Shown in pieces: positions 5,822-36,130 of a DNA stretch of 64,000 nt (its first letter is position 1; each line of letters starts with the position of its first letter). Source of the stretch: Oscillatoria nigro-viridis PCC 7112 (GTDB lineage: Bacteria > Cyanobacteriota > Cyanobacteriia > Cyanobacteriales > Microcoleaceae); assembly GCF_000317475.1 (NCBI RefSeq), contig NC_019729.1:5656501-5720500 (forward strand). Direction: 5' to 3'. The notes under the pieces were generated by a model, which saw only the letters and a program-made list of their open reading frames with translations, did not search any database and was not told where the DNA came from. The position numbers were made by a program, and so were the translations under genes.

Positions 5822-5928
5822 CCTAATTTTCTCCTTTTTTGATGGACTTTGTTAACATTCTGATTTTAACAAAGGTTCCAATTAAGAAATCTGCGGGAAT
5901 CTGGGGTTAAAACAATCCATTGATATAC

Positions 5929-7019
5929 TCACCGCCCTAAAAGGGCAGTGATTCTTGACGCTTCATTGGGAGATGCTACGGTCGTAGTCTTACTTTCCCT
6001 CTGCGTCCGTTTAGAGTCGTGGCAATATCCCATCCCGACTTTCTCTATATTTTTAGCGGCGTTTCCGTCTCTGTCGTGATGCGTCCCGCAATTGATGCAG
6101 ACAACTTCGCGAACAGAAAGGTCTAACTTTCCCCATCTAAAATCGCATTCAGAGCAAACTTGACTGGTAGGCTCCCACCTACTAATTACCCTAAAATCGC
6201 GTCCCAACTTATCGCACTTAGCTTCGCAGAGAACTCGGAATTGATACCATCCTTGCCCACTAATTGCTCTTGCCAAGCGTCGATTTTTTACCATCCCCGA
6301 CACGTTTAAATCTTCCAAAACAACAGTTTGGTTTTCTCTGACTATTTTGGTTGACAATTTGTGCAGGAAATCGGCGCGGGTGTCTGCTATCTTGTTGTAC
6401 TGGCGGGCTATCCGAATTCGAGTCTTGTTCCTGCGCCTTGAGTCATGCGGTTGGCGGGCTAACTTCCTTTGCAACTTCCTGATTTTGCGGTCGGGTTTCG
6501 AGTAATCCGGGCTTTTTACCTGCGTTCCATCACTGAGGGAGGCAAAAGTTTTTAGCCCCAAGTCTATCCCCACTGATTGGTTCTTCGGGAGCGGACTTGC
6601 AGGATTTATTTCGACTACAAAACTGAGGAAGTAGCGGTTTGCACAATCCTTAATTACCGTTACAGAGCTAGGTTCTGAAGGTAATTCCCTCGACAAAATC
6701 GGACTGACATCTCCTACCTTAGCTAAGTAGACTTGGCATCCCTTAATAGAGAACCCGGATTTGGTAAACTCCGCAGATTGGCTGTTGGTCTTTTTCTTAA
6801 ACTTGGGTGTCCCAACTTTTATTCCCTTTCTCTTCCCCTTGCGGGAATTGAAAAAATTTTTGTATGCTACTGATAAGTGCCGCAGAGATTGTTGCAAGGG
6901 AACGCAAGACACATTGTTAAGCCAACTCCGCTCTTGAGTCTTTTTGGATGCAGTTAATAAACCTGACAGTTGATTGTAATTGGGCAATTTTTCCGAACTT
7001 TTGCACAAATTTAAAGCAT
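5929..7019 (-). CDS. tnpB: TnpB RNA-guided nuclease, 3' exon
   Basis: Main part of an IS605-family TnpB, the ancestor-like relative of Cas12 that cuts DNA with a guide RNA from the element end. All catalytic parts are visible: RuvC-I GIDLGLKTFASLSDG, RuvC-II VVLEDLNVSGM, a zinc ribbon CSEC...CINC, and RuvC-III HHDRDGNAAKNI. The frame lacks the first 32 residues, because the N-terminus lies beyond the group II intron at 9509-9602. Joined, the protein would be about 394 residues and complete. It is made only if the intron splices. Confidence 0.9.
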
Positions 7020-7020
7020 G

Positions 7021-9508
7021 GTAAACTAAGCAAGGCTGTCACCAGCCCTGCTCGTCTTCAAAACCGGACGTGAAGCTTTCACCTCATCCGGCTCCTCAGT
7101 AATAAGGCTCTTGTCATGAGTACCTCTATTCCCCGTTTTTGAGGGTGAAGGCTTGGCGCGATTACAGCCAGATTTGTTGCCAAGACTTCCATCCTTGGTT
7201 GTCTTTTCATCGTGGCAATGTCGGTGGAGTAGTTGCAAATTGTCATAGCTATCCTTTCCGCCTTTCGACTTAGGGATAACGTGGTCTACTTCTAACACCG
7301 ATTCTTCTGTGAAGTGTAATCCGCAGTGGGTACATTTGCCTTTCTGTCGTTTCAAGAGTGTTGCCACATCTTTAGGGACTTCGGGGTTTTTGCCCATTCT
7401 TGCACTCCAGTACACAAGGTTGCCATCATAGGGACTAGCATCGCCTTTGACTTTCACATGACGCACGATATCTGTAGCGTTGTGATTTTGTAACCGCAAG
7501 GGGTTTTTCCTTTCTTGCCTGGTTGCGAATACCCAGTTATCATCGCCTATGGTTTGCCAATATTTGTTGGCTATCCATTCCCCTGATTTATTCGGGTGGC
7601 GTCTATGTGCCCAGCTTTTTAGCTTCTTGTACACTTTGTGTCCCAGTTCGGAGTATGTTTCCTTGCTGGTAACAGTGCGGTAATAGTTAGCCCATCCTCT
7701 GATGATTGGATTTAAATGAGTTATCAGCGCAGCTTGTGGAGCTGTTTTATGCTGTTCTATTACCTCAGAGATACTGTCATAGTGTAGCTTTAGCTTCTGC
7801 TTGCTGGGTTTGATGAGCGTCTTGAATCCAAGTGGTTCCCCATGAGGATTACAACCCGTGTTATATTTACCTACTGGGTACTGTCTGATATTAAACCCCA
7901 GGAAGTTAAACCCCGCGTCTTGCTCATCATGTTTATTCAATGTATGGGCAAGGCGCGTTTTACTTGGTTTCAATTCAAGTCCAATGCCGTTTAGCCACTC
8001 AGAAATCACTTCTTTACATCTATGGACAACGGTTAAGTCCTCGTGCAGTATTACGAAGTCGTCGGCGTACCGGATTAGGCTTAGAGATTGGCGATTTCCT
8101 CGCTTACTATGTCCTCGTGGTGTTGGCAATGTTTCAGCCACCTGCTTTATCCGTTCTTCCATCCCGTGAAGGGCAATGTTTGCCAGTAGCGGAGAGATGA
8201 CCCCGCCTTGTGGCGTACCCTCAGATGTGGGGAATAATTGATTGCCATCCATCACTCCCGATTTGAGCCAAGCGTTTATCTGGCGTCTTAAGGTCGGGAA
8301 TGTATTTAATTTTTTGAGAAGTTCCCCGTGGTTTATGCGGTCAAAGCATTTCGCGATGTCGGCATCCAGCACATATTTAGCCTTTGACTTAATAGCGTTA
8401 AAGATTGCCTCGACAGCATCATGGCATGAACGTCCTGGTCGGAATCCATAGGAGTTGGGTTCAAACCTTGCTTCCCACTCCGGTTCAAGCATCAATTTCA
8501 CTAACGCCTGAAGCGCTCTGTCGTACATCGTGGGAATACCAAGGGGGCGTTTTTCATCCGTTCCTGGTTTGTCAATCCATACCCGTCGAGTGGGTTTGGT
8601 TTTCCCCTTTAGCTCAAGTTTTTCCACCAGTGCTATCCTTTGGACGGGTGAGAGTGATTTAACTCCGTCTACTCCGGCTGTTTTCTTGCCCTGGTTGTCT
8701 TGCGTCACGCGACGTACAGCTAGCATCTTTCCTGACCAAGACCTCATCAATGTCTTCTGGAGTCTGCGGACTGCTTTCAAATCACCACGACTAGAGGCTT
8801 GGAATATTCTTTTTTGCAGCTTAAAGATTCGCCGTTCCAGCTTACGCCAGTCCGTCTCTCTCCATTCCACCATCTGATTGCTCAGTGTTTTAGACATTTG
8901 TACTGCTACTCTACACTATTCCTTCCTTATCACCGTGAGTCTGTCTGCATATCCTTGTCATTACAGCAAGGCGTTTGCTTCTGACTCAATCCCACCCACT
9001 CGCAGCATCCGGTTAGCACCTGCTCACGGTATTTGATTTCCGAGAGAACATACGAGGGGTTACTTCGTTCCGAACGACCATGCTATGAACCTTTAGAGCT
9101 CCACTATCCACCGGGTTTATTTAGAGATGCTGTTGGTCGGGGAACGAACCGCCAACCTTTTTTTCCTTTGCCTTTTTGGCTCCAGCTAATCAGTCCTTTT
9201 TGCTGGTTGTAGTTGACGATGGTTCAGTCGTGGATTCAGACGTAATGTTTTACTCATGGGTTCTTTGCTTGCCCCGCACTATCCTGAACTGGAAGTGTTG
9301 AGAGGCTTTCATCCCCGCTCTACGGATTGAGGGCTAGTCGCTACCGCAGGGGATGTGCTTTCACCTGGCATCTACAGGGGAGGGTTTTGCACCCTCATGG
9401 TCGCTCAGTTGTCAAGGTTCATTTTCGGGATTACTCCCTATTTTTGTCCTTGCTGCTAATCCCCCAAACCCTTCTTATTGGATTTGGTTTCTAGCAAACG
9501 AATCGCAC
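7021..9508 (-). mobile_element. Complete group II intron inserted in tnpB
   Basis: On the minus strand the intron starts with GTGCG (9508-9504) and ends near TTTAC (7021). It contains domains I-III (about 8900-9508), an ORF in domain IV, domain V (7060-7094, GAGCCGG...GAAAG...CCGG hairpin) and domain VI (about 7029-7051). Size is 2.49 kb. Removal joins TGGAAC of the 5' exon to ATGCTTTA of the 3' exon and restores tnpB as ...WN(D/H)ALNLC. One base at the junction is ambiguous. The structure looks complete and may be active. Confidence 0.9.
7026..8897 (-). CDS. ltrA: Group II intron-encoded reverse transcriptase/maturase with HNH nuclease
   Basis: 623-residue multifunctional intron protein. 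The reverse transcriptase domain spans about 60-370 with palm motifs DADIAKCFD (178-186), EGTPQGGVISPLLAN and the catalytic YADD at 277-280. The maturase X domain follows (IIRGWANYYRTV, KSWAHRRHPNKSGEWIANKYW). The C-terminal HNH endonuclease has CTHC, LEVDHVIPKSKGGKDSYDNL and HRHCHDEK. All catalytic residues are present, so retrohoming could be functional. The last 20 or so codons (EEPDEVKASRPVLKTSRAG) are translated from ribozyme domains V and VI, and the stop lies in domain VI. Confidence 0.95.
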   Translation of the reverse strand: MSKTLSNQMVEWRETDWRKLERRIFKLQKRIFQASSRGDLKAVRRLQKTLMRSWSGKMLAVRRVTQDNQGKKTAGVDGVKSLSPVQRIALVEKLELKGKTKPTRRVWIDKPGTDEKRPLGIPTMYDRALQALVKLMLEPEWEARFEPNSYGFRPGRSCHDAVEAIFNAIKSKAKYVLDADIAKCFDRINHGELLKKLNTFPTLRRQINAWLKSGVMDGNQLFPTSEGTPQGGVISPLLANIALHGMEERIKQVAETLPTPRGHSKRGNRQSLSLIRYADDFVILHEDLTVVHRCKEVISEWLNGIGLELKPSKTRLAHTLNKHDEQDAGFNFLGFNIRQYPVGKYNTGCNPHGEPLGFKTLIKPSKQKLKLHYDSISEVIEQHKTAPQAALITHLNPIIRGWANYYRTVTSKETYSELGHKVYKKLKSWAHRRHPNKSGEWIANKYWQTIGDDNWVFATRQERKNPLRLQNHNATDIVRHVKVKGDASPYDGNLVYWSARMGKNPEVPKDVATLLKRQKGKCTHCGLHFTEESVLEVDHVIPKSKGGKDSYDNLQLLHRHCHDEKTTKDGSLGNKSGCNRAKPSPSKTGNRGTHDKSLITEEPDEVKASRPVLKTSRAGDSLA

Positions 9509-9602
9509 CGTTCCAGACTACACGCACGCAGCCAAACAACTGAGCTAAACTCTGTCGTTGTTGGTCTGTTGGATAGAATCTGTAGCGATATCTTGCTTTC
9601 AT
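9509..9602 (-). CDS. tnpB: TnpB 5' exon (N-terminal 31 residues)
   Basis: Short exon reading MKARYRYRFYPTDQQRQSLA and on to FGCVRVVWN, the canonical TnpB N-terminus with the YRFYPT motif and GCVRVVWN helix. It ends exactly where the group II intron begins and continues in the 3' exon at 7019. It was found by reading the minus strand past the intron. ATG at 9602-9600. Confidence 0.9.
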
Positions 9603-9624
9603 AGCGGGGTTGATTTACTATCTA

Positions 9625-9664
9625 AAATAGTACCATATTGGCAGCGCACAAAATGGTACTATTT
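9625..9664. promoter_or_regulatory. Perfect 12-bp palindrome upstream of split tnpB
   Basis: AAATAGTACCAT (9625-9636) and its reverse complement ATGGTACTATTT (9653-9664) flank a 16-base loop, 23 bases before the tnpB start. It could be an operator, a 5' leader hairpin, or part of the transposon left end. The second tnpB has an unrelated palindrome in the same place. Confidence 0.5.
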
Positions 9665-9710
9665 ATGCGTATTTTTATTTCCATGCAACTTATGCAATTG
9701 AAGAGTAAAG

Positions 9711-11232
<1,522 letters not shown>

Positions 11233-35640: not shown

Positions 35641-35679
35641 CATCCTCCTATGCTGAATCAAAGATTACAGCGTAAGCTT

Positions 35680-36130
35680 GTTAAACGAAGCCGCCCCGTC
35701 ACCGGAGCGACTCGTCTTCAGAACCGTGCTTGCGGATTTCTCCGCACACGGCTCCTCTGTGCTTTGGTGCTGGTTACGCATACCGCCAGCTCGATCGTCC
35801 TTGGCTGTTTTAACATCGTGGCAATGTCGATGGAGGAGTGTTGTCACTGTAGTTGAGATTTCAGGGTGCTTGCCCATTCTCGTACTCCAGTATAGAAAAT
35901 CTCCGTCATAAGGGCTGCGATTCCCTTGCACTTTTATGTGTCTGCCGATGGGTGTTTCAGAGTGCTTTTTGAGGCGCATTACTTTTCCTTTTTTCCTAGA
36001 GGCAAAACTCCAATTATCGTTTTCTATGGTTGGCCAGTATTTCTTAGCTACCCATCCCGGAGTTTTGTTCGGATGACGAGAATTTGCCCAAGCTCTAAGT
36101 TGCTGGTAGGTAAGCATATCCGCTTTCTTA
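35680..36130 (-). mobile_element. 3' remnant of a group II intron
   Basis: Minus strand. A maturase X-domain frame (35665-36117) reads RAWANSRHPNKTPGWVAKKYW, matching the intact intron's protein, but the HNH nuclease is missing: TTLL joins directly to HRHCHD. Domain V (GAGCCGTG...GAAA...CACGG hairpin, about 35723-35757), domain VI and a 3' end near GTTTAAC (35680) remain. Everything upstream is cut off exactly at the IS630 inverted repeat (36129). Confidence 0.88.

Follow-up and report, generated by a model that had tools for sequence, protein, structure and literature searches.

A group II intron within the tnpB gene of an IS200/IS605-type element in Oscillatoria nigro-viridis PCC 7112 and its probable spread among tnpB lineages

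We analysed a 64,000-nt stretch of the Oscillatoria nigro-viridis PCC 7112 genome (NC_019729.1, positions 5,656,501 to 5,720,500), referred to below as the window, in which an insertion sequence (IS) of the IS200/IS605 type carries a tnpB gene interrupted by a group II intron. No tnpA open reading frame (ORF) was found in the window copy of the element. The gene, the intron and their parts, in window positions, are as follows.

5920..9753, minus strand: tnpB-only IS200/IS605-type element with intron (left end less certain)
9509..9602, minus strand: tnpB 5' exon, starting at ATG and running through codon 31 into the G that opens codon 32 (GAT)
9508..7020, minus strand: group II intron, 2,489 nt, GTGCG...TTTACC
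9209..9213, minus strand: exon-binding site (EBS) 2 (ACTAC), intron nt 296-300, pairing by covariation with intron-binding site (IBS) 2, GTAGT, at 9521-9517
9141..9146, minus strand: EBS1 (CGTTCC), intron nt 363-368, pairing by covariation with IBS1, GGAACG, at 9514-9509
9106, minus strand: EBS3 (T), intron nt 403, pairing by covariation with IBS3, A, at 7019
7026..8897, minus strand: intron-encoded protein of 623 aa (reverse transcriptase (RT)/maturase/HNH), frame open
7057..7097, minus strand: domain V (RF04357, 57.7 bits, and predicted fold)
7027, minus strand: bulged adenosine of domain VI, 8 nt from the intron 3' end (predicted fold)
5929..7019, minus strand: tnpB 3' exon including the stop codon, with RuvC residues and two CxxC pairs (PF01385, PF07282)

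The extent of the intron was set from an empty allele (L220, see below), the covariation of the EBS and IBS, the Rfam matches of domains V and VI, and four copies in the genome. The 5' end, GTGCG at 9508, fits the GUGYG rule for mobile group II introns. Domains V and VI (7097-7021) exceeded the gathering scores of two Rfam families, RF00029 (55.4 bits against 40) and RF04357 (against 53), and the bulged adenosine is presumed from the fold to be the branch point. The intron protein matched RVT_N, RVT_1, GIIM and HNH, and scored 330.8 against TIGR04416 (cut-off 300). All 12 EBS/IBS positions are paired in the window intron, and each of the 12 beat all 2,000 permutations in a set of 62 thinned relatives. 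A preliminary description of this DNA, made from the sequence alone, had reported a complete group II intron. The 5' splice site, domains V and VI, the open intron protein frame and the 5' exon (9602-9509) bear it out, but the 3' end is TTTACC at 7020, not TTTAC at 7021. The intron protein frame continues through domains V and VI, and its TAG stop codon (7026-7028) includes the bulged adenosine; a match up to residue 623 was also seen in a number of relatives.

Own-genome empty copies, allele L220, a relative intron at the same codon and EBS3-IBS3 covariation all place the 3' end at 7020 (TTTACC/A), with exon 2 beginning at 7019. L220, the empty allele that the window tnpB has in a sister genome within the genus, is 98.4% identical over 1,345 nt of joined sequence, with two single-base indels 11 nt apart relative to the window exon 2, and provides the empty site that the preliminary description had proposed to seek in sister strains. 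Its junction reads GGTAGTCTGGAACG-ATGCTTTAAATTTG, i.e. TGGAACG^ATGC. Five of the six uninterrupted own-genome tnpB sites examined have GAT at the split codon (TGGAAT-GAT-GC), four of these five being copies of one element; the more distant sixth, L063, has AAA. The same-codon relative, 84% identical and from another family of the order, ends TTTAAC/ATGC. A cut at TTTACC restores codon 32 (Asp, G/AT), and a cut at TTTAC makes the exons meet out of frame.

Covariation analysis searched for intron positions and exon bases that pair with each other. Searching by pattern yielded 104 intron 3' ends, of which 89 also had a start recognized by pattern, 84 usable flanks and 80 were distinct; the test set consisted of 62 sequences of less than 90% identity, with two rows of the window intron removed. 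The first base of exon 2 and intron nt 403 formed a Watson-Crick pair in 46 of the 62 sequences (permutation expectation 18.7), a count reached in none of 2,000 permutations. With the boundary one base earlier, 10 of 62 paired (expectation 10.8), indicating no covariation, and with the boundary one base later, 23 of 62 (expectation 18.6). In the window intron, EBS3 is U and the first base of exon 2 is A. The 80 introns ended in AT (39), AC (21), CC (11), CT (6), GC (2) and TT (1), so 20 of them have no A at position -2. Of the 11 introns ending in CC, a group that contains the two rows of the window intron, 9 show the pair with the aligned end and 2 with an end one base earlier.

A further comparison used the 16 related introns whose joined flanks match TnpB (see below). 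All 16 spanned a match as aligned, 9 did so one base earlier and 12 one base later; this test has no discrimination because TnpB matches extend slightly out of frame. The aligned 3' end gave the highest TnpB bit score at 13 of the 16 loci, the exceptions being L108, L118 and L158; in L108, the reading frame upstream of the junction is itself broken. The alignment with uninterrupted homologues called for by the preliminary description has resolved the 3' end, moving it from 7021 to 7020. Its one ambiguous base at the join is settled by the empty copies, the same-codon relative and the covariation, and its unusual splice requirement was an artefact of a splice site placed one base early. The 3' exon does encode ALNLCKSSEK, but only after the Asp of codon 32. 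An intron end that resembles AC/C can therefore be ACC/, in line with the EBS3 prediction.

The spliced gene would encode MKARYRYRFYPT...VVWN-D-ALNLCKSSEK..., and no stop codon interrupts the joined TnpB frame in any of the five loci that have an intron at this codon. In L220 the 5' exon is continuous with exon 2, forming an open TnpB of 394 aa. The window 3' exon matched OrfB_IS605 and Cas12f1-like_TNB. L220 TnpB aligned with the solved TnpB 8bf8 over residues 6-360 (E 2.1e-59); its best-scoring structure was 9yyg, an AI-designed relative. It passed the NCBIfam model NF040570 (guided_TnpB; 300.6, cut-off 100) and remained under the cut-off of the narrower NF038281 (IS200_TnpB; 320.6, cut-off 425). 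Alignment of L220 to solved relatives places the RuvC residues D184, E267 and D349 (L220 numbering), which we take to be the catalytic ones by analogy with ISDra2 TnpB, in the 3' exon without exception. The zinc ribbon pairs are CSEC at 320 and CINC at 339. The first D of the HDRD motif was considered as the catalytic residue and rejected, since the L220 alignment indicates the second (D349).

Because the RuvC residues all lie in exon 2, splicing restores the N-terminal 31 residues and not the active site. In unspliced RNA, the reading frame that opens at the tnpB start is 48 codons long, and 17 of these codons span the intron start or lie within the intron. These frames support the conclusion that full-length TnpB depends on intron removal, and the product would presumably be an active nuclease. 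The earlier statement that only splicing yields an active-site-complete protein is wrong in detail, since no catalytic residue comes from exon 1; the catalytic motifs themselves (RuvC D/E/D and zinc ribbon) are intact as described. Genes resembling tnpB are very abundant in this genome, in which 95 stretches match TnpB at E 0.001 or better.

The 8.27-Mb genome holds four copies of the intron, all at the same tnpB codon. The introns at L002 and L003 are identical to the window copy throughout their 2,489 nt. L190 and L191, which are the loci of L002 and of the fourth copy (L004) with more flank, share a single match of 4,168 bp (99.98% identity), and nothing else is alike in 17 kb. The match contains tnpA, tnpB and the intron; its tnpA scored 132.4 bits against NF033573 (cut-off 55). 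Since one 4,168-bp element is present at two places, this composite of tnpA, tnpB and intron probably transposes as a unit. A near-identical element without the intron is present in another genome of the genus (L240). The tnpB start is TTG in L190 and L191 versus ATG in L240.

A tnpA ORF is also present in L192. The 3' exons of the three tnpB lineages (window, L192 and L190/L191) are 67-77% identical, and a search through 61 genomes from the family gave no tnpB more than 85% identical to that of L192. The simplest reading of these sequences is carriage by transposition together with transfer between tnpB lineages. At occupied own-genome sites IBS1 is GGAACG and pairs with EBS1 throughout, and in the four nearest own-genome empty copies it is GGAATG, with one wobble pair. 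As a target preference this contrast is only suggestive, because the four empty copies represent one element and a relative, L081, occupies a GGAATG site. The junction pattern, allowing up to one mismatch, was matched in 16 of 388 genomes of the class; among 16 matched loci examined outside the own genome, judged by short one-frame translation, one reads as tnpB (L207, at the same place as L081).

The 5' exon retains what may be the trace of one transfer between lineages:

9509..9547, minus strand: 5' exon stretch identical to the donor-type copy L190, with informative sites at 9522-9534

The 100 nt immediately upstream of the insertion point were compared among the window, L220 and L190. At all five positions where the window and L220 differ (-26, -23, -19, -17 and -14), the window has the L190 base; at the 11 sites between -40 and -100 where L190 differs from both, the window agrees with L220. 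Over the 245 nt of the element compared, there are two further window/L220 differences, near -195 and -236, and the probability that at least five of seven differences fall within the last 39 of 245 nt is 0.0013. Exon 2 of the window is of the L220 type: it first differs from L220 at +50, L190 differs from +5 on, and the donor exon 2 is only 68% identical to that of the window. The empty allele of L190 itself carries the L190 bases in the tract. These data fit homing from an L190-type donor, accompanied by co-conversion of a short piece of the 5' exon; this would identify the likely donor type and the recipient allele. To our knowledge, retrohoming in bacteria usually proceeds without 5' exon co-conversion tracts, and nothing on such tracts for bacterial introns was found in literature titles or abstract openings.

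Taken together, we propose, with a probability of about 0.88, that a retrohoming group II intron of cyanobacterial type entered tnpB at codons V-V-W-N/D. The intron RNA would recognise its site through the pairs EBS1/IBS1 (GGAACG), EBS2/IBS2 (GTAGT) and EBS3/first base of exon 2 (A), with an RT/maturase/HNH protein whose frame is open. It would spread by homing to target-bearing tnpB genes of other lineages, and by carriage inside a tnpA-bearing IS605-type element on transposition. Full-length TnpB would come only from spliced RNA, unspliced RNA giving the 48-codon frame, and close empty alleles would be expected to carry TGGAACGATGC. The anatomy, the exact insertion point, the target pairing, the copy number, the composite copies and the 5' exon tract can be read from the sequences compared; we infer that the intron splices in the cell, that TnpB acts as a nuclease and that transfer went by retrohoming rather than gene conversion.

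Several points weigh against this proposal. The 3' terminal AY, usual and not essential in group II introns, is absent from the window intron, whose last two bases are CC. The L004 copy has a 1-nt deletion at intron nt 828 that shifts the frame of the intron protein gene. The permutations behind the covariation allow for relatedness only through thinning at 90% identity. The element may have moved as an empty copy, with L190 and L191 acquiring the intron separately afterwards, and the tract could stem from gene conversion among copies of an intron already inserted.

The alternative that survives best overlaps with the proposal and denies only its splicing step: the intron may now act as a retroelement only, with few or no exons ligated, and tnpB would be effectively silent and intact merely through recent insertion. 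The near-identity of the intron copies, which would have left the exons no time to decay, speaks for this, as does the ligation of less than 1% of RmInt1 exons in vivo (PMC4238363, consulted in excerpt, as are the sources below). Against it stand domains V and VI, the EBS/IBS pairings and the frame of the intron protein, all of them intact, and an open joined TnpB at each of the five loci; we regard a silent tnpB as possible, on the less likely side. Rather speculative, and in our view doubtful, is the further idea that tnpB genes form a standing niche for this lineage of cyanobacterial introns and that the intron gates an RNA-guided nuclease through its splicing, as a valve would. It would combine retrohoming with 5' exon co-conversion between tnpB lineages and IS carriage, and weak or slippery splicing at the ACC end would limit the TnpB dose.

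Movement between tnpB lineages by homologous recombination or gene conversion, in place of retrohoming, would account for the donor-matching tract and the identical introns. The window exon 2 is nevertheless of recipient type from its first bases, despite the low identity of the donor exon 2, and the junctions coincide with ribozyme splice sites and pairing rules, which makes this route improbable. A splice site at TTTAC/C, which would give a frameshifted mRNA and no TnpB, is hardly credible and was rejected: AC ends are commoner than CC ends among related introns, but EBS3 U pairs with A and not with C, the empty alleles read ATGC so that the extra C must leave with the intron, the same-codon relative agrees, and covariation is absent one base earlier. 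The occupied and empty alleles offer a natural system for the mutual effects of a retroelement and an RNA-guided nuclease in one transposon, and raise the questions of whether splicing limits TnpB and whether transposon retention by TnpB also keeps the intron.

Group II introns in IS genes are a kind already published, to which the window intron adds. RmInt1 of Sinorhizobium meliloti lies within the transposase region of ISRm2011-2, where poor splicing was proposed to limit the IS (PMC4238363). Like the window intron, it sits inside an IS gene region whose protein needs splicing. It differs in its host of the IS630-Tc1 family, its IIB3/class D type and its protein without an endonuclease domain (PMC8914252), whereas the window intron resides in tnpB and encodes a protein with HNH. 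In Thermosynechococcus elongatus, three F4 introns occupy a conserved site in the IS200-family element ISEL1 (PMC2882425); these are likewise cyanobacterial group II introns in an IS200-family element, and insertion into other mobile elements is named as a route of proliferation. The excerpt with which we compared them, by description, names no ISEL1 gene hit, IS carriage or 5' exon tract (PMC2882425). IStrons, group I introns joined to IS605- or IS607-type elements, also combine a self-splicing intron with an element encoding TnpB (ORF B), but the intron is fused at the IS 5' end and spares the host gene (PMC4227781). The window element, in contrast, has no group I intron fused to an IS end; its intron belongs to group II and disrupts tnpB, a gene of the IS itself, from within. 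According to a survey excerpt, nesting of group II introns in other mobile elements is often seen (PMC8919778). No description of a group II intron inside tnpB was found in titles and abstract openings of mostly non-subscription literature. Here, spread between copies can be traced base by base.

The nesting of mobile elements noted in the preliminary description is supported, but its rarity is doubtful, given the published cases (PMC4238363, PMC2882425) and the related introns. Among 83 related introns with both flanks (at least 60 nt), chosen by likeness to the window intron and not as a random sample, 16 had a TnpB match across the joined flanks, four of them own-genome copies. The reference set consisted of 25 proteins and L220's own, all related to L220 TnpB. 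TnpB identity was low (26-32%) in six of the 16 (L087, L093, L118, L120, L158 and L166), and the open frame through the junction was short in L108 (66 aa) and L118 (58 aa).

With the shared codon counted as one row, the intron lies at most 10 residues from a RuvC catalytic residue in 6 of 12 mapped loci (16% expected, P 0.006), the limit of 10 having been picked after inspection. The count is the same with the first or second D of HDRD as catalytic; with L093 and L120 merged as one position, it is 5 of 11 (P 0.02). A general preference for conserved residues was not significant (P 0.18), and an excerpt of a published analysis likewise reports group II introns without such a preference (PMC2814812); both findings weaken a reading in terms of catalytic codons. 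The introns of L086, L087, L108 and L189 split other tnpB genes beside RuvC-I, -II and -III motifs, that of L108 splitting the codon aligned with the third catalytic Asp.

The ends of the window element are marked by three features:

9754..9757, minus strand: TGAC beside the left end, likely target motif (TAM)
9711..9727, minus strand: left-end hairpin CCGTCCTTATAGGACGG
5930..5950, minus strand: right-end hairpin CACTGCCCTTTTAGGGCGGTG

All seven related own-genome copies examined have TGAC at their left end, and those with the right end displayed terminate in GTATTTCAA. At the right end, similarity of other copies to the window element ceases at 5920. In seven relatives of the flanks (L248-L254), both flanks lie close together and the element is absent; L248-L250 have TGAC at the same place, and their junction is longer than that of the window by about 6 nt. 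TGAC was not found just upstream of the L220 copy. The left end and TGAC as target motif are probable from these comparisons.

Other nestings were seen among the related introns. In L109 and L127, the intron end abuts the start of another intron, GTGCGATTCGTT, and in L151 it does so after one base, all being tandem insertions. In L107 and L181, the sequence after the intron end, translated by eye, looks like coding sequence for a portion of a group II RT, so that the intron appears to lie inside the RT gene of another intron. The window itself contains a second, apparently degraded group II intron at 35665-36117, which encodes a 150-aa piece of an intron protein and has domains V and VI (35672-35756) above the Rfam gathering score.

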